DNA of 46,567 nt from an uncultured Bacilli bacterium (GTDB lineage: Bacteria > Bacillota_I > Bacilli_A > RF39 > UBA660), in the NCBI GenBank assembly GCA_944332205.1, contig CALVJN010000010.1, positions 1 to 46,567 of the forward strand. The letters are read 5' to 3'. The translations under genes were made by a program, and so were the position numbers. The notes beneath the pieces were generated by a model. That model made no database searches and had not been told where the DNA came from. It worked only from the letters and a program-made list of their open reading frames with translations. This document shows, piece after piece, positions 2,990 through 32,910 of this stretch; position 1 is the first letter of the stretch; each line of letters starts with the position of its first letter.

Positions 2990-5572
2990 ATGAATAGTTC
3001 TTATGAAAATAATATTATGATAAATAATTTAGTAGAAAGAGCAAAAATAGCAAGTCGTGAGTTTATGAAACTTACTCAAGAAGATGTAGACAGGATTGTA
3101 AAAGAAATGGCTATGGCCGCTCTTGCTAATCATATGATGCTTGCTAAATTAGCAATCGAAGAAACAAAGCGTGGTATTTATGAAGATAAAATAATTAAAA
3201 ATATGTTTGCAAGTGAATATGTTTATCATAGTATTAAATACGATAAGACTGTTGGAGTAATAGAAAAAAATGACGATGAAAATTATTCGCTAATTGCTGA
3301 TCCTGTAGGAATAATAGCAGGAGTAACTCCTGTTACGAATCCTACTTCAACTGTTATGTTTAAGTCACTAATTTCTGCTAAAACAAGAAATGTAATTATA
3401 TTTGGATTTCATCCATCTGCTCAGAAATGTAGTGTTAAAACAGCTGAAATATTGCGAGAAGCTGGTATTAAAGCAGGAGCGCCGGAAGATTTTATTTTAT
3501 GGATAGATAATCCTTCAATAGAAGCTACAACTTTATTAATGAAACATCCGGGAGTTAATTTGATTTTAGCAACAGGGGGAACAAATATGGTTAAAAGTGC
3601 ATATTCCTGTGGCAAACCAGCCTTGGGAGTTGGACCTGGTAATGTTCCTTGTTATATTGATAAAACAGCCGATTTAGATAGAAGTATAACAGATTTAATT
3701 ATTTCTAAGTCATTTGATAATGGTATGATATGTGCATCAGAACAAGCAGTTATAATTGATAGCGAAATAAAAGAAGAATTTGAAAAGAAAATGAAGAAAT
3801 ATGGTTGCTATTTTGTTAATGAATTAGAAAAAAAATTACTTACAGATTTTATGTTTGATTTTAATAAAGAATTAAATAATAAGGTTGTAGGGCAAAGCCC
3901 ATATTCAATAGCCGAACAGTCAGGATTTAAAGTACCTATGGATACAAAAATATTAGTGGTAAATGAAGATGGTGTTGGAGTTAATCATCCATATTCAAAA
4001 GAAAAGTTAAGTCCAGTTTTGGCATATTATATTGTTGATTCTAAGGATGAAGGTATTCTCTTGGCAGAAAAATTAGTGGAATTTGGCGGATTAGGACATT
4101 CAGCAGTAATACATTCTAACAATAAAAATACTATACTTGAATTTTCTAAAACTGTAAAAGTAGGAAGAATTATTGTTAATTCACCATCGACACATGGAGC
4201 AATAGGAGATATATATAACACAAATTTACCATCTTTAACTTTGGGCTGTGGAACATTCGGTGGAAATTCAACAACAGAAAATGTTTCTAGTGTTAATTTA
4301 ATAAACATTAAAAGAGTTGCTAAAAGACGAGTAAATATGCAATGGTTTAAAATGCCTGAAAAAATATATTTTGAAGCTGGATCAATAGGTTATTTAGAAA
4401 AAATGCCTAATATAAATAGAGCATTTATTGTGACTGATGAGTCAATGATAAAATTAGGTTATGTTGATAAGATCTTACATCAACTTCGAAAAAGGCAAAA
4501 TACTGTCCATTCCGATATATTTTACGAAGTAGAAACTGATCCTTCTTTTGAAACAATAAAAAAAGGTGTAGCTATGATGAGAAACTTTTCCCCTGATGTT
4601 ATTATAGCTCTTGGTGGTGGAAGTGCAATAGATGCTGCAAAAGGAATGTGGCTATTCTATGAAAATCCAGAGGCTGACATTAATGGTCTAAAACTTAAAT
4701 TCATGGATATAAGAAAAAGAACATATAAATATCCAACATTAGGAAAAAAGACAAAATTGGTGGCTATTCCAACAACTAGTGGAACAGGGTCTGAAGTTAC
4801 ATCTTTTGCGGTAATAACTGATAAGAAACTTAATATGAAATATCCATTAGCAGACTATGAACTTACACCATCAGTAGCGATTATTGATGTTGATTTAGTA
4901 AAATCACTTCCAAAAGTACAAACAGCAGATACTGGAATGGATGTATTAACTCATGCAATAGAAGCATATGTTTCTAATATGGCTTCGGATTATACAGACG
5001 GCCTTGCAGAAAAAGCAATCGAAATCGTTTTTAAATATTTAGAAGAAGCTTATAATAATGGAAATAATCTTTTAGCAAGAGAAAAGATGCATAACGCTTC
5101 TACCATTGCAGGTATGGCATTTACTAATGCTTTTCTTGGAATTAACCATTCATTAGCGCATAAAATAGGAGCAGAGTTCCATATTTCGCACGGGCGAACA
5201 AATGCAATACTTCTTCCTTATATTATAAAGTATAATGCAACTATGCCTACAAAATTTGTTTCTTTTCCAAAATATGAACATTATATTGCTGATTATAAAT
5301 ATTCATTGCTTGCCAAACGTATTGGAATTGAATTTAATAACACAAAAGAAGCGATAGATAAATTAGTTGAAAAAATTAATGATTTAAATAAAAGTTTAAA
5401 TATTCCAAAAAGTTTTAGCGAATATGGTATTAATGAAAGTGAATTTTTAAGCAAAATTGATATATTAGCCGATAAAGCCTTTGAAGATCAGTGTACTAAC
5501 ACCAATCCACGTTTACCTTTAATTGAAGAATTAAAAAAAATAATGCTAGATGCTTATTATGGAAATATTTAG
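2990..5572 (+). CDS. adhE: Bifunctional acetaldehyde-CoA / alcohol dehydrogenase AdhE
   Basis: AdhE reduces acetyl-CoA to acetaldehyde and then to ethanol, regenerating NAD+ during fermentation. The N-terminal half (about 1-440) is the aldehyde dehydrogenase part, with its catalytic cysteine in the block DNGMICASEQ near residue 247. The C-terminal half (about 450-860) is an iron-type alcohol dehydrogenase with the NAD-binding GGGSAIDAAKG near residue 543, PTTSGTGSEVTSF near residue 600, GMDVLTHAIEAYVS near residue 650 and the metal histidines in NHSLAHKIGAEFHISHG near residues 720-736. The length of 860 residues is full. A strong AGGAGG precedes the ATG. It is monocistronic, bounded by the upstream terminator and the next gene's own leader. 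It suggests an anaerobic, ethanol-forming metabolism. Confidence 0.97.
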   Translation: MNSSYENNIMINNLVERAKIASREFMKLTQEDVDRIVKEMAMAALANHMMLAKLAIEETKRGIYEDKIIKNMFASEYVYHSIKYDKTVGVIEKNDDENYSLIADPVGIIAGVTPVTNPTSTVMFKSLISAKTRNVIIFGFHPSAQKCSVKTAEILREAGIKAGAPEDFILWIDNPSIEATTLLMKHPGVNLILATGGTNMVKSAYSCGKPALGVGPGNVPCYIDKTADLDRSITDLIISKSFDNGMICASEQAVIIDSEIKEEFEKKMKKYGCYFVNELEKKLLTDFMFDFNKELNNKVVGQSPYSIAEQSGFKVPMDTKILVVNEDGVGVNHPYSKEKLSPVLAYYIVDSKDEGILLAEKLVEFGGLGHSAVIHSNNKNTILEFSKTVKVGRIIVNSPSTHGAIGDIYNTNLPSLTLGCGTFGGNSTTENVSSVNLINIKRVAKRRVNMQWFKMPEKIYFEAGSIGYLEKMPNINRAFIVTDESMIKLGYVDKILHQLRKRQNTVHSDIFYEVETDPSFETIKKGVAMMRNFSPDVIIALGGGSAIDAAKGMWLFYENPEADINGLKLKFMDIRKRTYKYPTLGKKTKLVAIPTTSGTGSEVTSFAVITDKKLNMKYPLADYELTPSVAIIDVDLVKSLPKVQTADTGMDVLTHAIEAYVSNMASDYTDGLAEKAIEIVFKYLEEAYNNGNNLLAREKMHNASTIAGMAFTNAFLGINHSLAHKIGAEFHISHGRTNAILLPYIIKYNATMPTKFVSFPKYEHYIADYKYSLLAKRIGIEFNNTKEAIDKLVEKINDLNKSLNIPKSFSEYGINESEFLSKIDILADKAFEDQCTNTNPRLPLIEELKKIMLDAYYGNI

Positions 5573-6454: not shown

Positions 6455-6487
6455 AAAAAATAAGTATATTATTATTACTTATTTTTT
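6455..6487. terminator. Bidirectional terminator between the zinc-ribbon gene and gerB
   Basis: A 12-bp perfect stem AAAAAATAAGTA / TACTTATTTTTT (6455-6466 with 6476-6487) has a 9-nt loop and ends in T runs on both strands. The gerB stop codon lies inside it. Confidence 0.8.
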
Positions 6488-7491
6488 TTGTATGTTAAAA
6501 TATTAGCAATTATAAAAATAGTTAGTATAATATAAAAATAGAAATTTGTTATTATATCAAGCTTTATAACAGAAAAGAAAACTATTATATCTATTAAAAT
6601 ATAAATTTTATTATCGATATTAAAATTAGTCTTTATAATTTCTTTAGAATAATTTAAAGCAAGTGACAAAACTATTAAATTTTCTATAAAAATATTTATT
6701 ATTAATATTTCTTCTAATCTTTCAAAAAAATTAAAAATATTTATTATTTTTAGGACTTCAATTTCTGGATAAGCTACTATTGAATAGTATTTATCTCCCA
6801 AAATTGATATAATAAATAATATTTTTATAATCATATATATATAAAATAATACAAAAAATATATATGATTTTTTTTTGCAATCGTTAAAATCAATAATTTC
6901 TTTTTTTGGTATAATAAGTATCATAAAAACTGGCGCTATAGTAATAAGAAATAATTGAAGGAAATTTAAATTGTCTATGTTAGTATTTATAGGCAATAAA
7001 TTTATCGGATTAACATTTAACAAATTAAAAGAGAAATTTATAATTAAAAAAATAAGATATACTATAAACATTATATTTGCAGCAATTGTTATTGATTTTA
7101 TACCTTTTATAGCAAGTAATGTGCTTAATATTAAAAAAGTTAATTGTATTATTTGAATACTTATATTGGTAAGAAGAACATTCTTAATTATTAAAGATAA
7201 ATTCAATAAAACATAAATACTTATTCCTAAAGATCCAATTAATAATAAAAATTTAATTACATTATTAATTATTTTTATATTAGATAATTTTTCAAAATAA
7301 TTATCATTGAAAAGTTGAGAGATTATCTTAATGAAAAAAAAACCTAAGATAAAAGATATTAATATTGTCATAATTATACTTAAAGTATTAGTATGTTTAA
7401 ATAATTGTATAGTTGTTGTAGAAGTAAAACTATTTAAAAGAAAAAATATTAAAACACCAATTTCTAATGATGTATATTTTTCTTTATTCAA
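6475..7491 (-). CDS. Spore germination permease, GerB family (GerAB/GerKB type)
   Basis: The integral membrane subunit of a nutrient germinant receptor, belonging to the amino-acid permease-like spore germination family and acting in the spore inner membrane. About 338 residues with around ten hydrophobic segments along the whole length. The extremely AT-rich, Ile/Phe-rich sequence has kept the N-terminal TSLEIGVLIFFLLNSF helix. The longest frame begins at GTG 7500, but that GTG is part of an ideal AGGAGGTGAT Shine-Dalgarno sequence. TTG at 7491, 8 nt after AGGAGG, is the likely start. It then overlaps the gerC stop by 8 nt (TTGAATAA), implying translational coupling. It is the last gene of the A-C-B operon, the same order as gerK. 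Confidence 0.85.
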   Translation of the reverse strand: MNKEKYTSLEIGVLIFFLLNSFTSTTTIQLFKHTNTLSIIMTILISFILGFFFIKIISQLFNDNYFEKLSNIKIINNVIKFLLLIGSLGISIYVLLNLSLIIKNVLLTNISIQIIQLTFLILSTLLAIKGIKSITIAANIMFIVYLIFLIINFSFNLLNVNPINLLPINTNIDNLNFLQLFLITIAPVFMILIIPKKEIIDFNDCKKKSYIFFVLFYIYMIIKILFIISILGDKYYSIVAYPEIEVLKIINIFNFFERLEEILIINIFIENLIVLSLALNYSKEIIKTNFNIDNKIYILIDIIVFFSVIKLDIITNFYFYIILTIFIIANILTYKKNK

Positions 7492-8419
7492 AAATATCAC
7501 CTCCTATATTTGGTTTATAATCGATGCTAACATTAACTCTATATTCCATATTATTGGTTTCAAAATTTTTATATTTATATAAAAGATAATCAAAATAATT
7601 ATTTTTATTGTTTTGAGTAAAAGCTTTTATAATCTTAGTCAAATAATTTTCAATATTTTCTTTATCACCTTCATTGTTGCCATAATACTTACAATAAAAA
7701 TTAATTTCAATATCTTTAGTATGAATTTTGTTAGTAGTATAACATTGTTCTAATTTATATATATTTTTATCTATAATAATTTGAAATGTTTTTATATTAT
7801 TTTTTATTATGTTTATTGCAAGTGACTCTTCATTAGTAAGTATCTTATTTTCATCATAAATTGTCTTATAACCTTTTACAGTAATTTCATTTTGTGTTTC
7901 AATAAATGGAACATAACTAATATTAAAATTTAAAATATCTTTAATTATGTCAGTTAAAGTTACTTCACTCGTTATACCATTAGTTGACAAAGACAAGGAA
8001 AGTATATTTTTTATATCACTAGTATTCGCTTGAAGAATTTTACTATCTATATGTTCAACAATTATTGTAGTAAATGAACCACGTGAACTTTTTTCATTTA
8101 AAAAAAAGTTAAATATTTCATTATAATTTTTTTTTGCTAAATTATTGCTAAGAATTAATAAATCCATATGAGTCAAATAAAGTCTTTTCATTAATTCAGT
8201 ACTTAGTTCATTAAAGCATTCATCTAATGAAGTACATGTCTTTATGTAAATATTTTCTTCATTTTCTTGATTGCTAGATAATACTTTTACATATACATTA
8301 TAATTATTCCCATTAACTGATATACCTATTGAAGATACTACTGCAATATTGCTTATATCGTTATAATTAGTGCAACCAGTAAGAAGAATTACCAATATTA
8401 TTAGATAAATTTTTTTCAT
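7484..8419 (-). CDS. Spore germination lipoprotein, Ger(x)C family
   Basis: The lipoprotein subunit of the germinant receptor. A lipoprotein signal peptide ends in the lipobox LTGC, with Cys16 as the expected lipidation site. It is followed by the family's first strand pattern, DISNIAVVSSIGIS. At 311 residues it is shorter than usual GerC proteins (about 360-400), and the C-terminal domain motifs are weakly conserved. The start has AGGAGTTAAT before ATG. It begins 8 bp after the gerA stop and overlaps gerB. Expression is expected in the forespore (sigma-G type), but no clear sigma-G promoter could be read. Confidence 0.88.
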   Translation of the reverse strand: MKKIYLIILVILLTGCTNYNDISNIAVVSSIGISVNGNNYNVYVKVLSSNQENEENIYIKTCTSLDECFNELSTELMKRLYLTHMDLLILSNNLAKKNYNEIFNFFLNEKSSRGSFTTIIVEHIDSKILQANTSDIKNILSLSLSTNGITSEVTLTDIIKDILNFNISYVPFIETQNEITVKGYKTIYDENKILTNEESLAINIIKNNIKTFQIIIDKNIYKLEQCYTTNKIHTKDIEINFYCKYYGNNEGDKENIENYLTKIIKAFTQNNKNNYFDYLLYKYKNFETNNMEYRVNVSIDYKPNIGGDIFE

Positions 8420-8427
8420 ATTAACTC

Positions 8428-9837
8428 CTATCTATTTCTATTTTTAGTCAAAAGTGGATTTCTTTTGTTTTCATCGTTATTAACTTTTATTAAAGAATCT
8501 AAAACATCTGATTTAATAAATGGCACAAAAGGATAAGTATATGGGAAACCAAATGATGTAGTACTGGCAAGATTTATAACTAATATACCAAATCCGATAA
8601 ATAATCCATATATTCCTAGTAACATTCCAAGTATTAATATTAAATAACGATAATACCTTATTAAATTTACTATTGAGTTATATGAAAAAACTAAAGCACT
8701 TATGGAACTTATAGCAACAACAATTATCATAATAGGTGATATAATACCAGCACTAACTGCCGCATCGCCTAATATTAATCCGCCAAGAATAGATACTGAG
8801 CTTCCAACTTTATTAGGTATTCTAATATCACTTTCTCTTAATATTTCAAATGCAATTATCATTATTAAAATCTCAAAAAAGGCAGGAAATGGTACGATTG
8901 TATGTTGTTCTATTAAATTTAAAAGAAGGTTAGTAGGAATAGCGGTTGGATTAAAAGAAGTTACACTTATATAATATCCAGGAAGAAATATAGCAATTAA
9001 AAAAGCTAAAAATCGCAAAATTCTTGTAAATGTAGTGTTAATATTCTTTTGGTAATAATCATCAGGTGTATGGAAAAAATCAATAAAAAAAGTTGGAATA
9101 ATTAATACAGTAGGGGAATTGTCAACTATTATGCAAATTTTTCCCTCTAGTAAAGCAAAAGAAGCTAAATCAGGACGTTCTGTTTGATTTACTTGCGGTA
9201 AAAAAGTAGATTTAGAAAGTTGTTCTGTTATATATCCACCATCAATAATAATATCATTATTTATTTCTATTATTTTATCCATTACTTTTTTTATAAGTGA
9301 TTTTTCTGCAATGCCATTTATGTAACAAATACCAATTTTAGTACGGCTTTCATTTCCTAAAGTAATGGATTTGACAAAAAGATTATTATTCCTTATTCTT
9401 TTTCTGATTAGTCCTAAATTAGTATTGAAGTTTTCAGTAAATGAATCTTTCGGCCCAGTTATAGAAACTTCTATGGAAGATGAGTTTATCCCTCTATCTA
9501 AAGAAGCTTTGGTTTCAATTGATAGTATCTCTTTATCGTTTATTATTATAATAGTATAACCAAGAAAAATACTTTTAATTGCATCATCTATTTTTTTTAA
9601 TTCATTAGTTGATGAACCTGTAAGTGAATTTTTAATTAAATTTGTTATTGATATATTAGAAATCTCTTTATTTTCTATTATTAATTTAGAAATAGGCCTT
9701 AAAACATAATTTGTTATGGAAGAAGAACTAGATAAAGTCTCACTATATATACAATCAATTTTATTATTTTTTAAATTAATTGTTCTTACAATTATATCTG
9801 TACTATTACCACATTTACTTAAAATTTCTTCTTTCAT
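8428..9837 (-). CDS. Spore germination protein, GerA family
   Basis: The A subunit of a GerA-type nutrient receptor, which senses germinants and starts ion release from the spore. At 469 residues it is near full length (about 480). The N-terminal soluble part carries the family block KRIRNNNLFVKSITLG near residue 145 and the conserved QTERPDLASFALLEGKICIIVDNSPTVL stretch around residues 220-245. The C-terminal part has about five membrane helices, including the FLPGYYIS and VPFPAFFEILIM blocks, then a short tail of about 50 residues. The ribosome binding site is GGTGATT. It is first in a gerA-gerC-gerB operon on the minus strand, diverging from rlmD across a 97-bp gap. Confidence 0.95.
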   Translation of the reverse strand: MKEEILSKCGNSTDIIVRTINLKNNKIDCIYSETLSSSSSITNYVLRPISKLIIENKEISNISITNLIKNSLTGSSTNELKKIDDAIKSIFLGYTIIIINDKEILSIETKASLDRGINSSSIEVSITGPKDSFTENFNTNLGLIRKRIRNNNLFVKSITLGNESRTKIGICYINGIAEKSLIKKVMDKIIEINNDIIIDGGYITEQLSKSTFLPQVNQTERPDLASFALLEGKICIIVDNSPTVLIIPTFFIDFFHTPDDYYQKNINTTFTRILRFLAFLIAIFLPGYYISVTSFNPTAIPTNLLLNLIEQHTIVPFPAFFEILIMIIAFEILRESDIRIPNKVGSSVSILGGLILGDAAVSAGIISPIMIIVVAISSISALVFSYNSIVNLIRYYRYLILILGMLLGIYGLFIGFGILVINLASTTSFGFPYTYPFVPFIKSDVLDSLIKVNNDENKRNPLLTKNRNR

Positions 9838-29852: not shown

Positions 29853-29943
29853 ATCCTCACCAGACATTCACAATTATTATTTTACTATTAAATATTTATT
29901 TAATCAATAATATAATATTTTTGTTTAAATATGTTTTATATTT

Positions 29944-29964
29944 TGCTATAATAACAATGGTGAT
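29944..29964 (+). promoter_or_regulatory. Promoter and Shine-Dalgarno of rnc, very short leader
   Basis: TG (29944-29945), C, TATAAT (29947-29952) is an extended -10. GGTGAT (29959-29964) follows 7 bases later, so the transcript would begin at about the Shine-Dalgarno itself. Confidence 0.55.
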
Positions 29965-29968
29965 AGAA

Positions 29969-30634
29969 GTGAATGAATTATATAATTTATTAAATATAAA
30001 GCCTAAGGATACTAAATATTATATTACAGCTTTTCAGCATTCATCATATGTTAATGAAAATCACTTGAAAAGTGATTATGAAAGATTAGAATTTTTAGGA
30101 GATGCGGTTTTAGAATTAGTGATAAGTGATTATCTTTTTCAAAATTTAGAAATAAAAGAAGGGGATATGACAAAGTTACGCGCTAGTTATGTCTGTGAAA
30201 ATGCTCTTTTTGAATATTCCAAGGATTTACAATTAAGTAAATATATTAAAGTTGGACATGGTGAAGAAATTGATGGTGGAAGATATAAAAAAGTAATATT
30301 AGCTGATATTTTTGAAGCTTTGATGGGTGCTATATATTTAGATTTAGGGTTTGATACTGTAAAAAGAGTAATTTTAGGAATAATAGTTCCTTATATAGAA
30401 AATCCGAAAATTATATTTTTTAATGATTATAAATCAGCATTGCAAGAATTCGTTCAAACTGAACAGAGAAGTCTTGTATATGAAGTTATTTCTGAAGAAG
30501 GCCCAGCACATAATAAGTCTTTTACTGTTGCTGTTAAAGTTGACGATATAATTTATGGAACAGGTGTTGCTCCTAGTAAAAAAGAAGCAGAACAGGAAGC
30601 AGCACATGATGCTATTAAGAAATTAGCATTATAA
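29969..30634 (+). CDS. rnc: Ribonuclease III
   Basis: RNase III cleaves double-stranded RNA in rRNA maturation and mRNA turnover. About 221 residues. The catalytic signature RLEFLGDAVLELVISDYL lies near residue 38, and the second metal site, LADIFEALMGAIYLD, near residue 110. The C-terminal dsRNA-binding domain begins at DYKSALQEFVQ and ends with KEAEQEAAHDAIKKLAL. The longest frame starts upstream at 29921, but its first residues precede the promoter's -10. GTG 29969 behind GGTGAT fits best. The usual neighbours smc and ftsY are not present. A ribonuclease J gene follows 74 bp downstream, making a small RNA-decay cluster. Confidence 0.95.
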   Translation: MNELYNLLNIKPKDTKYYITAFQHSSYVNENHLKSDYERLEFLGDAVLELVISDYLFQNLEIKEGDMTKLRASYVCENALFEYSKDLQLSKYIKVGHGEEIDGGRYKKVILADIFEALMGAIYLDLGFDTVKRVILGIIVPYIENPKIIFFNDYKSALQEFVQTEQRSLVYEVISEEGPAHNKSFTVAVKVDDIIYGTGVAPSKKEAEQEAAHDAIKKLAL

Positions 30635-30708: not shown

Positions 30709-32361
30709 TTGAGTAAAATAAAAATTTTTAGTTTAGGTGGATTAAACGAAAATGGTAAAAATATGTATGTAGTTGATGTTGACAATAATATTTTTATTTT
30801 TGATGCGGGGCTTAAATATGCAACTGATAAAATGCTTGGAGTCGATTACATTTTGCCTGATTATACTTATATAAAAGAAAATAGAAAAAAAATAAAAGGA
30901 ATCTTTTTAACGCATGGACATGATAGTAATATGGGCGCAATGGCTGACATCTTATATGAACTTCCAGACTTACCTGTTTATGCTACTAAATTTACTATGG
31001 AAGTGCTTAAAGAGGATTTATCTGAAAGTGGAGTTATAGCAACAAAGTTAAAAGAAATACGTCCACATTCAAAGCTTACATTCGGTGAATTAGTAATTTT
31101 CCCTATTAGTGTTACTCATTCTATACCAGATGCAGTATGCTATGTTCTTTATACTAAAGACGGGGCTATAGTTTATACTGGTGATTTCGTATTTGATCCG
31201 ACAATGATGGGAGCGTATAAAACTGATATTGGGAAACTTGCATACGTTGGAAAGCAAGGAGTATTATGTTTACTATCAGAATCAATTTATGCAGAAAAAG
31301 AAGGCCATACTAGTCCTAATAATAGAGTAAGTAGTTTTATAAGAGATATTTTGCATAAAAGTGAAAATAGAATCATAGCAACAATAATGACAGCCCATAT
31401 ATATAGAGTTCAAGAAGTATTGAGCGAAGTTGCAAATACTAAAAGAAAAGTAGTTATTATGGGGAAAAATTTACAAAACATAATAAATAAATCTATTGAA
31501 ATGGGATATATTAGTTTTAATAAAAATCAAATAGGAGACTTAAGTAACGCCAATGATAAAGATGTAATTATTCTTATATCAGATGAAAAAGAAAAACCAT
31601 ATATGAATTTAGAGAGAATACTAAAAGGGTTCGATAAATATATAAAACTTAGAGAGACGGATACTATTTTTATAACAGAACCACCATCTGAAGGATTAGA
31701 AAAAAGAACAGCTCTTATTATGGATGAAATTGCTAAAAAAGATGTAAATGCCGTTTGTTTAAATGCTAAAAAACATTTATTACATCACGCATCGCGTGAA
31801 GATTTAATGTTGATGATTAACCTAATTAATCCTAAATATTATTTTCCAGTTAAAGGAGAATATCGTCATCAGGTAATGAATGCAGAAATTGCAGAACGAT
31901 TAGGTATACCTAAAGAGAACATAATATTAAAGCAAAACGGAGATGTAGCTACATTTATTGATGGGAAACTAACGGATGATTTAGAACATATTGAAACAGA
32001 TGAAATATTAATAGATGGTAAAAGCCAAGGTGATATAGGAGATTTAGTTCTGAAAGATCGTGAAATGTTAGGAGAAAATGGTATTGTTATAGTTAGCTGT
32101 ACATTAAACAAAAAAACAAAAGATATTTTAGCAGGGCCTGAAATTCTAACTCGCGGATTTGTTTATGTAAAAGAAAGCGGAGACCTTCTTAAAGAAACAC
32201 AAGAAATTTGTTTAGATGTTATTAAAGATAGTATTGATATAGAAAATAAAAAAGTTGATTATACTAAAATAAAAAATGATGTTCGTGAAAGATTAGGAAA
32301 ATACTTTTATAAGGAAACTGAATGTAAACCTATGGTTATAACAGTAATTCAAGAGGTCTAA
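30709..32361 (+). CDS. rnjB: Ribonuclease J family protein with degenerate metal site (RNase J2-like)
   Basis: 550 residues with the RNase J order: metallo-beta-lactamase domain, beta-CASP domain, then a C-terminal domain with LTRGFVYVKES near residue 480. RNase J normally has an HxHxDH motif. Here it reads H69-G-H71-D-S73-N74, so the two last ligands are lost. The HGEYR histidine is also replaced, giving PVKGEYR with K382. H137 (VTHSIPD), D159 (YTGDFVFD) and the HHA block near residue 358 remain. Loss of ligands is known for J2-type partners of RNase J1, so this is probably a weak or non-catalytic subunit; that is inference. The start is TTG behind AAAGGAG. No J1 gene lies in the window. Confidence 0.88.
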   Translation: MSKIKIFSLGGLNENGKNMYVVDVDNNIFIFDAGLKYATDKMLGVDYILPDYTYIKENRKKIKGIFLTHGHDSNMGAMADILYELPDLPVYATKFTMEVLKEDLSESGVIATKLKEIRPHSKLTFGELVIFPISVTHSIPDAVCYVLYTKDGAIVYTGDFVFDPTMMGAYKTDIGKLAYVGKQGVLCLLSESIYAEKEGHTSPNNRVSSFIRDILHKSENRIIATIMTAHIYRVQEVLSEVANTKRKVVIMGKNLQNIINKSIEMGYISFNKNQIGDLSNANDKDVIILISDEKEKPYMNLERILKGFDKYIKLRETDTIFITEPPSEGLEKRTALIMDEIAKKDVNAVCLNAKKHLLHHASREDLMLMINLINPKYYFPVKGEYRHQVMNAEIAERLGIPKENIILKQNGDVATFIDGKLTDDLEHIETDEILIDGKSQGDIGDLVLKDREMLGENGIVIVSCTLNKKTKDILAGPEILTRGFVYVKESGDLLKETQEICLDVIKDSIDIENKKVDYTKIKNDVRERLGKYFYKETECKPMVITVIQEV

Positions 32362-32424: not shown

Positions 32425-32450
32425 AAGTGATACATTAGTGTCACTTTTTA
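32425..32450 (+). terminator. Terminator after the RNase J gene
   Basis: AAGTGATAC / GTGTCACTT (32425-32433 with 32438-32446) form a 9-bp stem with one G-T pair and a 4-nt loop, followed by T. Confidence 0.75.
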
Positions 32451-32910
32451 ATTTTTAAATTTTTTAATTCAATTAATATAATATTAGCAATAAGAATAAT
32501 ACTAATAATAAAAAACAAATAATATCATATAAAAAATTAAATGTTAAAAAAGTAAAATTAAAAATGTAAAAATTTATATATTATAATATTTTTTATATAA
32601 AAAATGGAAAAGAAAAAATATTAAAAATAACCCTAACAATTCCAATATTGAATTAACTCTGACACAATTTGTTTAAGAAAAAAATAATGGTAACTTTAAA
32701 AAAATTGATTATATGAAAAAATTAATTATTATTTTGATAGATTAAGATTAAAGGTAATAAAAAAAGATATATAAAATATAATATATTATTCGTAGAAAAA
32801 ATAACTTTAAATATTTTTTAGTTAATTAATATTTAAACATATTTTTTCTTTTTTTGTATATCTGCAATGTCACATCAATTGTAACTCTACAAAAAAAATT
32901 TCTAAAAAAG
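32451..32910. other. Long AT-rich intergenic stretch without a recognised gene
   Basis: About 460 bp, made almost only of A and T, with scattered stops in all frames. I see no convincing ORF, RNA motif, array or transposon end. A small imperfect palindrome centres on CAATATTG near 32642-32649. The stretch ends just before the strong rpsU promoter. It is the longest gap in the window. It could be an upstream A-tract (UP-like) region for rpsU, a decayed gene, or an unrecognised small RNA. Confidence 0.5.

Follow-up and report, generated by a model that had tools for sequence, protein, structure and literature searches.

An RNase J2 homologue that keeps the first-metal ligands and has lost those of the second in an uncultured Bacilli bacterium

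The described RNase J2 proteins are partners of RNase J1, with an activity that is reported as weak or dispensable in some species and as needed in another. In the account of the Enterococcus faecalis J2 (PMC5383250), H74, H76, H142 and D164 (numbered as in B. subtilis J1) bind one Zn ion and D78, H79, D164 and H390 bind the other, and the ligands of the second Zn are given as non-conserved in J2 proteins. The same source reports that the D73A mutant of this J2 is active and the H69A and H71A mutants inactive, that J1 and J2 associate with a KD of 74 nM, and that pili are not restored by an active-site-dead J2, so that J2 catalysis can matter. The Staphylococcus epidermidis J2 is reported to bind one Mn ion and to have endonuclease activity with it (PMC7864078). 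For S. aureus, the HGH to AGA mutant of J2 is described as growing like the wild type and the J2 deletion as causing growth defects (PMC3937233), and potent activity in vitro has been reported for the S. mutans J2, whose motif is nearer to the consensus. By these accounts, the role of J2 beside J1 is unsettled, the site being dispensable in S. aureus, needed in E. faecalis and occupied by one metal in S. epidermidis.

Here we analyze an RNase J gene in the window, that is, the whole stretch of 46,567 nucleotides from an uncultured Bacilli bacterium. Loss of the second metal in J2 is already published (PMC5383250), so that the ligand losses are nothing out of the ordinary; the window J2 is mostly ordinary, but it contributes a densely sampled example of the dismantling of an enzyme. 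A half-site kept across a family, a graded loss across families and a pairing of J2 with rnc were not found in the open-licence PMC text searched. A family with an invariant first site and no second, together with lineages that have neither, provides natural material for separating metal-dependent from scaffold roles of J2.

The RNase J2 gene and the J1 of the same genome

The gene is an uninterrupted frame for 550 amino acids (Table 1), the product of which matches TIGR00649 (E 7.7e-145, 483.3 bits against a cut-off of 400) and contains the Pfam domains RNase_J_C and RNase_J_b_CASP, both above their own cut-offs; by this match and both domains, it belongs to the RNase J family of beta-CASP metallo-beta-lactamases. 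Ligand positions were set by aligning the sequences to B. subtilis J1 as reference (H74, H76, D78, H79, H142, D164 and H390), and the seven equivalents in the window protein are H69, H71, S73, N74, H137, D159 and K382. The kept residues are H69, H71, H137 and D159, and the replacements are D78 to S73, H79 to N74 and H390 to K382, exactly as had been read at first pass for the HxHxDH motif (H69-G-H71-D-S73-N74), for the HGEYR histidine and for the retained H137 and D159. The three losses fall precisely on the ligands that serve the second metal alone; the first-metal site is whole. The HHA block (H359-H360-A361), also listed as retained, is present but only partly canonical: the 5'-phosphate loop reads HLLHHA against HTSGHA in J1, with the Ser and Gly gone and H360 kept. 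Compared with RNase J1 (RnjA), defined by all seven ligands and HTSGHA, the window protein thus lacks three ligands and two loop residues. It scores 472.7 bits with NF047419, the NCBIfam model of J1 (cut-off 820 bits), and the genome's intact J1 scores 756.3 bits, likewise below the cut-off.

Table 1. Features of the rnc-J2 region of the window and related loci
Feature	Position or loci	Strand	Basis and remarks
rnc, ribonuclease III	29921..30634	+	TIGR02191, E 1.7e-72; 74 bases upstream of the J2 gene
RNase J2 (rnjB-like) gene, 550 aa, TTG start	30709..32361	+	ORF list and translation, TIGR00649, Pfam, tree
HxHxDH equivalent, H69-G-H71-D72-S73-N74, with the first two ligands retained and the equivalents of D78 and H79 lost	30913..30930	+	sequence and alignment
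H137, retained ligand of the first metal (H142 in B. subtilis J1)	31117..31119	+	alignment
D159, retained (D164 in B. subtilis J1); replaced by Asn in 50 of 199 family J2s	31183..31185	+	alignment
H356-L-L-H-H360-A361, equivalent of the J1 HTSGHA 5'-phosphate loop	31774..31791	+	alignment; role of the loop as reported in PMC7864078
K382 at the position of the HGEYR histidine (H390 in B. subtilis J1), a lost ligand of the second metal	31852..31854	+	alignment
Terminator-like hairpin with T-rich tail after the J2 gene	32425..32456	+	weak: two such sites in the region against 0.7 expected from shuffled sequence
J2s of TGA-reading genomes, nearly all ligands lost, gene kept	L399-L416, L418, L290, L318, L319		

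In a quick IQ-TREE analysis of 107 representative rows, unrooted, with no outgroup and with midpoint rooting for drawing only, all J1 proteins are split from all J2 proteins by a branch of 100% SH-aLRT, and J2 is monophyletic only if the root falls between the two. The S. epidermidis J2 falls on the J2 side, and so does the window protein, which is placed inside a family J2 clade of 25 rows with 100% support, a position that identifies it as an RNase J2 (RnjB). Branches are long for some of the distant J2 rows, and the deeper branching order within J2 is unsafe. Sequences were labelled as J1 or J2 according to which of two tblastn scores was higher, in agreement with the tree for the rows that it includes; one locus (L289), tied by the rounded score, was filed as J2. 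Among the best 80 of 302 relatives, a sample biased to close ones to which distant family members were added by further searches, the closest named records are metagenome assemblies labelled as uncultured Bacilli, Erysipelotrichaceae, Clostridium and Tenericutes, together with Candidatus Scybalousia and Candidatus Faecimonas, the latter classified as Bacilli incertae sedis in NCBI; in GTDB, this group is RF39.

The genome (1.25 Mb in 34 contigs, 95% complete) contains two matches to the window protein, namely the window gene itself and a gene on contig C18 (G000:C18:17540-19180) at 35% identity, in which HxHxDH, HGDYR and HTSGHA are intact and all seven ligands are present. Two RNase J genes exceed the family-model cut-off in this genome, so that the window gene is a second J paralog beside an intact J1, as expected of RNase J2. 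The first-pass annotation had made its interpretation hinge on a normal J1 elsewhere in the genome; this J1 exists, and together with the placement among the J2 proteins in the tree, it bears out the proposed J2 type.

Weak matches to the family model were also observed on contigs C25 (E 1.5e-14) and C21 (E 1.7e-6), both below the cut-off; the C25 match (G000:C25:9411-10121, minus strand, locus L419) lies inside a frame of 416 aa and is perhaps another beta-CASP protein. The C18 J1 gene is convergent with a gene for RNase Y (L002, 1480-3159 on the plus strand and 3493-4578 on the minus strand; TIGR03319, 599 bits against a cut-off of 454), so that two decay enzymes adjoin at this locus. A neighbour test for rny yielded no family J1 locus with sufficient flank.

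In close genomes, divergence proceeds at comparable rates for the two proteins, with J2 often slightly faster: identity is 85% for J2 and 86% for J1 in one relative (G008), and 66% and 75%, respectively, in another (G054). A J1-grade match is absent from 39 of 386 family genomes (35 with a weak match only and 4 with none, counted by eye from the best E-values), most of which are less complete assemblies. The pattern looks like assembly incompleteness and does not support loss of J1 as a lineage trait, with the exception of G036. This genome, listed as 98% complete, encodes only a J2 (L124) with Asn at the equivalent of D159 and has no J1-grade match; in genomes of this type, J2 would be without a J1 partner. 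Another genome with no J1-grade match (G055, 0.5 Mb, 81% complete) carries two J2-type genes (L121 and L128), both with Asn at this position. Several J1-less genomes carry D159N proteins; further decay of J2 where J1 has been lost was nevertheless rejected, because D159N marks a subclade that includes J1-bearing members (for example, G105 and G117).

Conservation of the ligands and selection on J2

Ligands were tallied over 216 family J2 loci that correspond to 199 distinct proteins, the one from the window included, with matches spanning 300 or fewer query residues omitted. The first-site histidines are kept throughout the family, H74 and H76 in 198 of 198 sequences (one row does not cover them) and H142 in 199 of 199, and the equivalents of H69, H71 and H137 are constant in covered sequences, even in those that share only about 48% identity with the window protein. 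H368 (H360 of the window protein) is kept in 198 of the 199 proteins, and the D164 position is occupied by Asp in 149 and by Asn in 50. At the second site, D78 is found in none of 198 sequences and H79 in 11; H390 is mostly replaced by Lys (127), Ile (37) or Arg (16) among 199. This non-conservation of the second-metal ligands, with loss of the HGEYR histidine, is again the pattern of RNase J2 (RnjB).

The first-site histidines are less strictly kept in J2 proteins from other families of the class (n = 41), in which H74 is present in 38, H76 in 40 and H142 in 37; D164 is found in 28, D78 in 29 and H79 in 25. In families with in-frame TGA in their RNase J genes, which would appear to be Mollicutes, all 22 J2 proteins retain at most one of the seven ligands; 3 of these proteins come from the main alignment, and 19 were added to a fixed-length alignment in which the letters of such divergent proteins are less certain. 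The HGEYR histidine is absent from every J2 examined (kept in 0 of 199 family proteins, 0 of 41 from other families and 0 of 22 from TGA-reading genomes), which suggests that it was the earliest loss. All seven ligands are present in the J1 proteins (40 of 40, 21 of 21 and 3 of 3). A deletion of three residues in the phosphate loop, apparent in pairwise motif tables, proved to be an alignment artefact, the positions being filled in nearly all rows of the multiple alignment.

In comparisons of the window gene with 11 relatives, the dN/dS ratios are in the range of 0.04 to 0.09 (about nine independent comparisons, given that L036 and L003, and likewise L040 and L004, yield identical values), at dS values of 1.37 to 1.89, that is, near saturation, except for L032 at 0.75. 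Thus, the window J2 is under strong purifying selection. At the positions of D159 and K382, Asp occurs with Lys or Arg in 144 rows, Asn occurs with Lys or Arg in none and with other residues in 50, and six D-bearing family rows have no basic residue at the K382 position. A Fisher test for covariation of the two positions (p 7e-41, 200 rows) is meaningless because the tree shows one or two independent changes of D159.

An RNase J match to the window query was detected in 144 of 145 family genomes, and a J2-type match is absent from 8 of the 145 (read by eye, with fragments in G009 and G100 counted as present). With one of these eight (G087) set aside, the genera of the other seven were compared, and J2 is present in at least one congener in six of the seven cases; in genus g62, neither of two genomes has a J2-type match. 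Such a match is likewise absent from G510 (two contigs, 91% complete), G569, G579, G599, G175 and G556.

The rnc neighbour and local context

In the scan of the region, no terminator-like site was listed between rnc and the J2 gene, and the two are probably co-transcribed. Promoter-like sites are not in excess in the region (31 against 27.6 in shuffles); one of them overlaps the J2 start, and the J2 gene may have its own promoter. Rfam yielded no match in the window.

In the family, 204 J2 loci have 900 or more bases of upstream sequence, and rnc precedes J2 in 100 of them; by the same flank test, it was found upstream of none of 43 J2 genes from other families, 36 family J1 genes and 23 other J1 genes. 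The linkage depends strongly on relatedness, being present in 81 of 92 J2s at 65% identity or more and in 3 of 95 below (187 distinct J2s, each with at least 900 bases upstream). In the tree of J2 proteins, 70 of the 72 rnc-linked rows group in a single 96-row clade, together with 10 unlinked and 16 unlabelled ones, and parsimony requires 11 changes of linkage (26 of 204 rows carry no rnc label). Thus, rnc and J2 form a pair that is conserved in one subclade and has been gained or lost several times. The pairing, initially described as an unusual link between two RNA-decay enzymes, is therefore real and conserved, but its presence mainly in one subclade indicates no general functional link between them. 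Downstream of J2, rpsU is found only at 80% identity or more, in six of the seven loci there with enough flank.

Elsewhere in the window (6475-9837, minus strand), three adjoining genes look like those for a spore germination receptor, in a genome of 1.25 Mb; all matches to the germination models (germination permease, Ger(x)C and GerXA) are below their own cut-offs.

Role of the window J2 and comparison with described proteins

The window gene very probably encodes an RNase J2 that mainly supports J1. It would be the supporting or regulatory partner in a J1-J2 complex, with the 5'-3' exonuclease work done by the C18 J1, and 5'-3' decay in this genome should fall to that J1; by analogy with the described proteins, we infer complex formation, metal content and activity for the window's family. 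Considering that the first-site histidines are invariant, the window J2 probably still binds one metal, which would be held by H69, H71, H137 and D159, and K382 might neutralise D159 where the second metal formerly sat. Some residual RNase activity is quite possible, although the nuclease would be weak at most; given that the D73A mutant of the E. faecalis J2 is reported to be active (PMC5383250), the window J2 should not be called dead. The initial proposal that most two-metal catalysis is removed is consistent with these data, but with a complete four-ligand first-metal site and three histidines invariant in the family, the protein does not appear to be metal-free or inactive.

On a broader scale, we tentatively suggest that J2 proteins across lineages form a series in which a two-metal nuclease has been naturally dismantled. 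The first ligand to go would be the HGEYR histidine, with the subsequent order dependent on the lineage and the series extending to one or none of the seven ligands in TGA-reading genomes; selection would keep the window's family at the stage of a one-metal half-site, in which Lys382 takes the place of the lost metal in most members. An order of loss fixed throughout is rejected by the J2 patterns of other families, in which D78 and H79 can be kept with D164 changed to Glu or Asn, and H74 or H142 can be lost with H79 kept. If the dismantling series is real, orthologues from nature could help to tell the metal-dependent functions of J2 apart from the purely structural ones.

The strict retention of the first-site histidines and near-invariance of H360 in 199 sequences, beside the drift of the second-site positions, would also suit a one-metal RNase with its own substrates that still cuts RNA, mainly endonucleolytically and independently of J1, as would the reported one-Mn endonuclease activity of the S. 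epidermidis J2 (PMC7864078) and the E. faecalis mutants, active for D73A and not for H69A or H71A (PMC5383250). Such autonomy nonetheless seems rather unlikely in view of the loss of Ser and Gly from the 5'-phosphate loop of the window J2, and in view of the J2s of TGA-reading genomes, which keep none or one of the seven ligands. The persistence of J2 genes in those genomes, where the first-site histidines are lost, and the Asn at D159 in part of the window's family are in line with a metal-free structural protein in which the histidines persist for folding; however, a plain need of the fold leaves the invariant H69, H71 and H137 unexplained, other lineages having lost them, and we consider this improbable. 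In a draft genome of 34 contigs, an error of sequencing or assembly could be suspected, or else a pseudogene in decay, yet the frame is intact, the dN/dS ratios are low, the pattern recurs in 199 distinct family sequences and the same substitutions are found in many separate assemblies. This recurrence already refutes the sequencing error that the first-pass annotation had named as a way for its reading to fail, and the whole explanation carries next to no weight compared with a J2 that supports J1.

The structural model proposed at first pass was built with AlphaFold from 81 aligned J2 sequences, including the window's own (mean pLDDT 89, pTM 0.78). Upon realignment of 1000 chains, Z-scores against this model are 46.3-47.0 for the S. 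epidermidis J2, 45.7 for the B. subtilis J1 and 44.5 for the S. epidermidis J1, the top row being the H80A mutant of the S. epidermidis J2 (8yyj; rmsd 1.9, 430 aligned). Thus, the predicted fold is that of RNase J, with J2 only slightly nearer than J1. The lowest Foldseek E-value belongs to 9a5v, an integrative J2-J1 model at 37% identity, the chain A of which we take, from the entry title, to be the J2 of Bacillus subtilis; the comparison holds at the level of the fold only.

The top PDB sequence matches of the window protein are the S. epidermidis J2 and its mutants. This J2 (6k6w, 8yyk and mutants; PMC7864078) shares with the window protein the fold, the kept first-metal histidines and the replacement of second-metal ligands, but the reported replacements differ: H80, A81, E166 and Q392 stand for D78, H79, D164 and H389, where the window J2 has S73, N74, D159 and K382. 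Its Mn is reported to be held by H80 as well, and its phosphate loop is given as HASSH, compared to HLLHH in the window J2. The E. faecalis J2 has the same H69 and H71, reported as needed there for activity (PMC5383250), but keeps D73, dispensable by mutation, where the window J2 naturally has Ser. The S. aureus J2, proposed as a structural partner of J1 and having a degenerate HxHxDH motif (HGHEHA; PMC3937233), is alike in its degeneracy and differs in the ligand replacements. Finally, the J2s of TGA-reading, Mollicutes-like genomes also group with the J2 proteins in the tree (three rows, on long branches) but, unlike the window J2, have lost the first-site histidines too.
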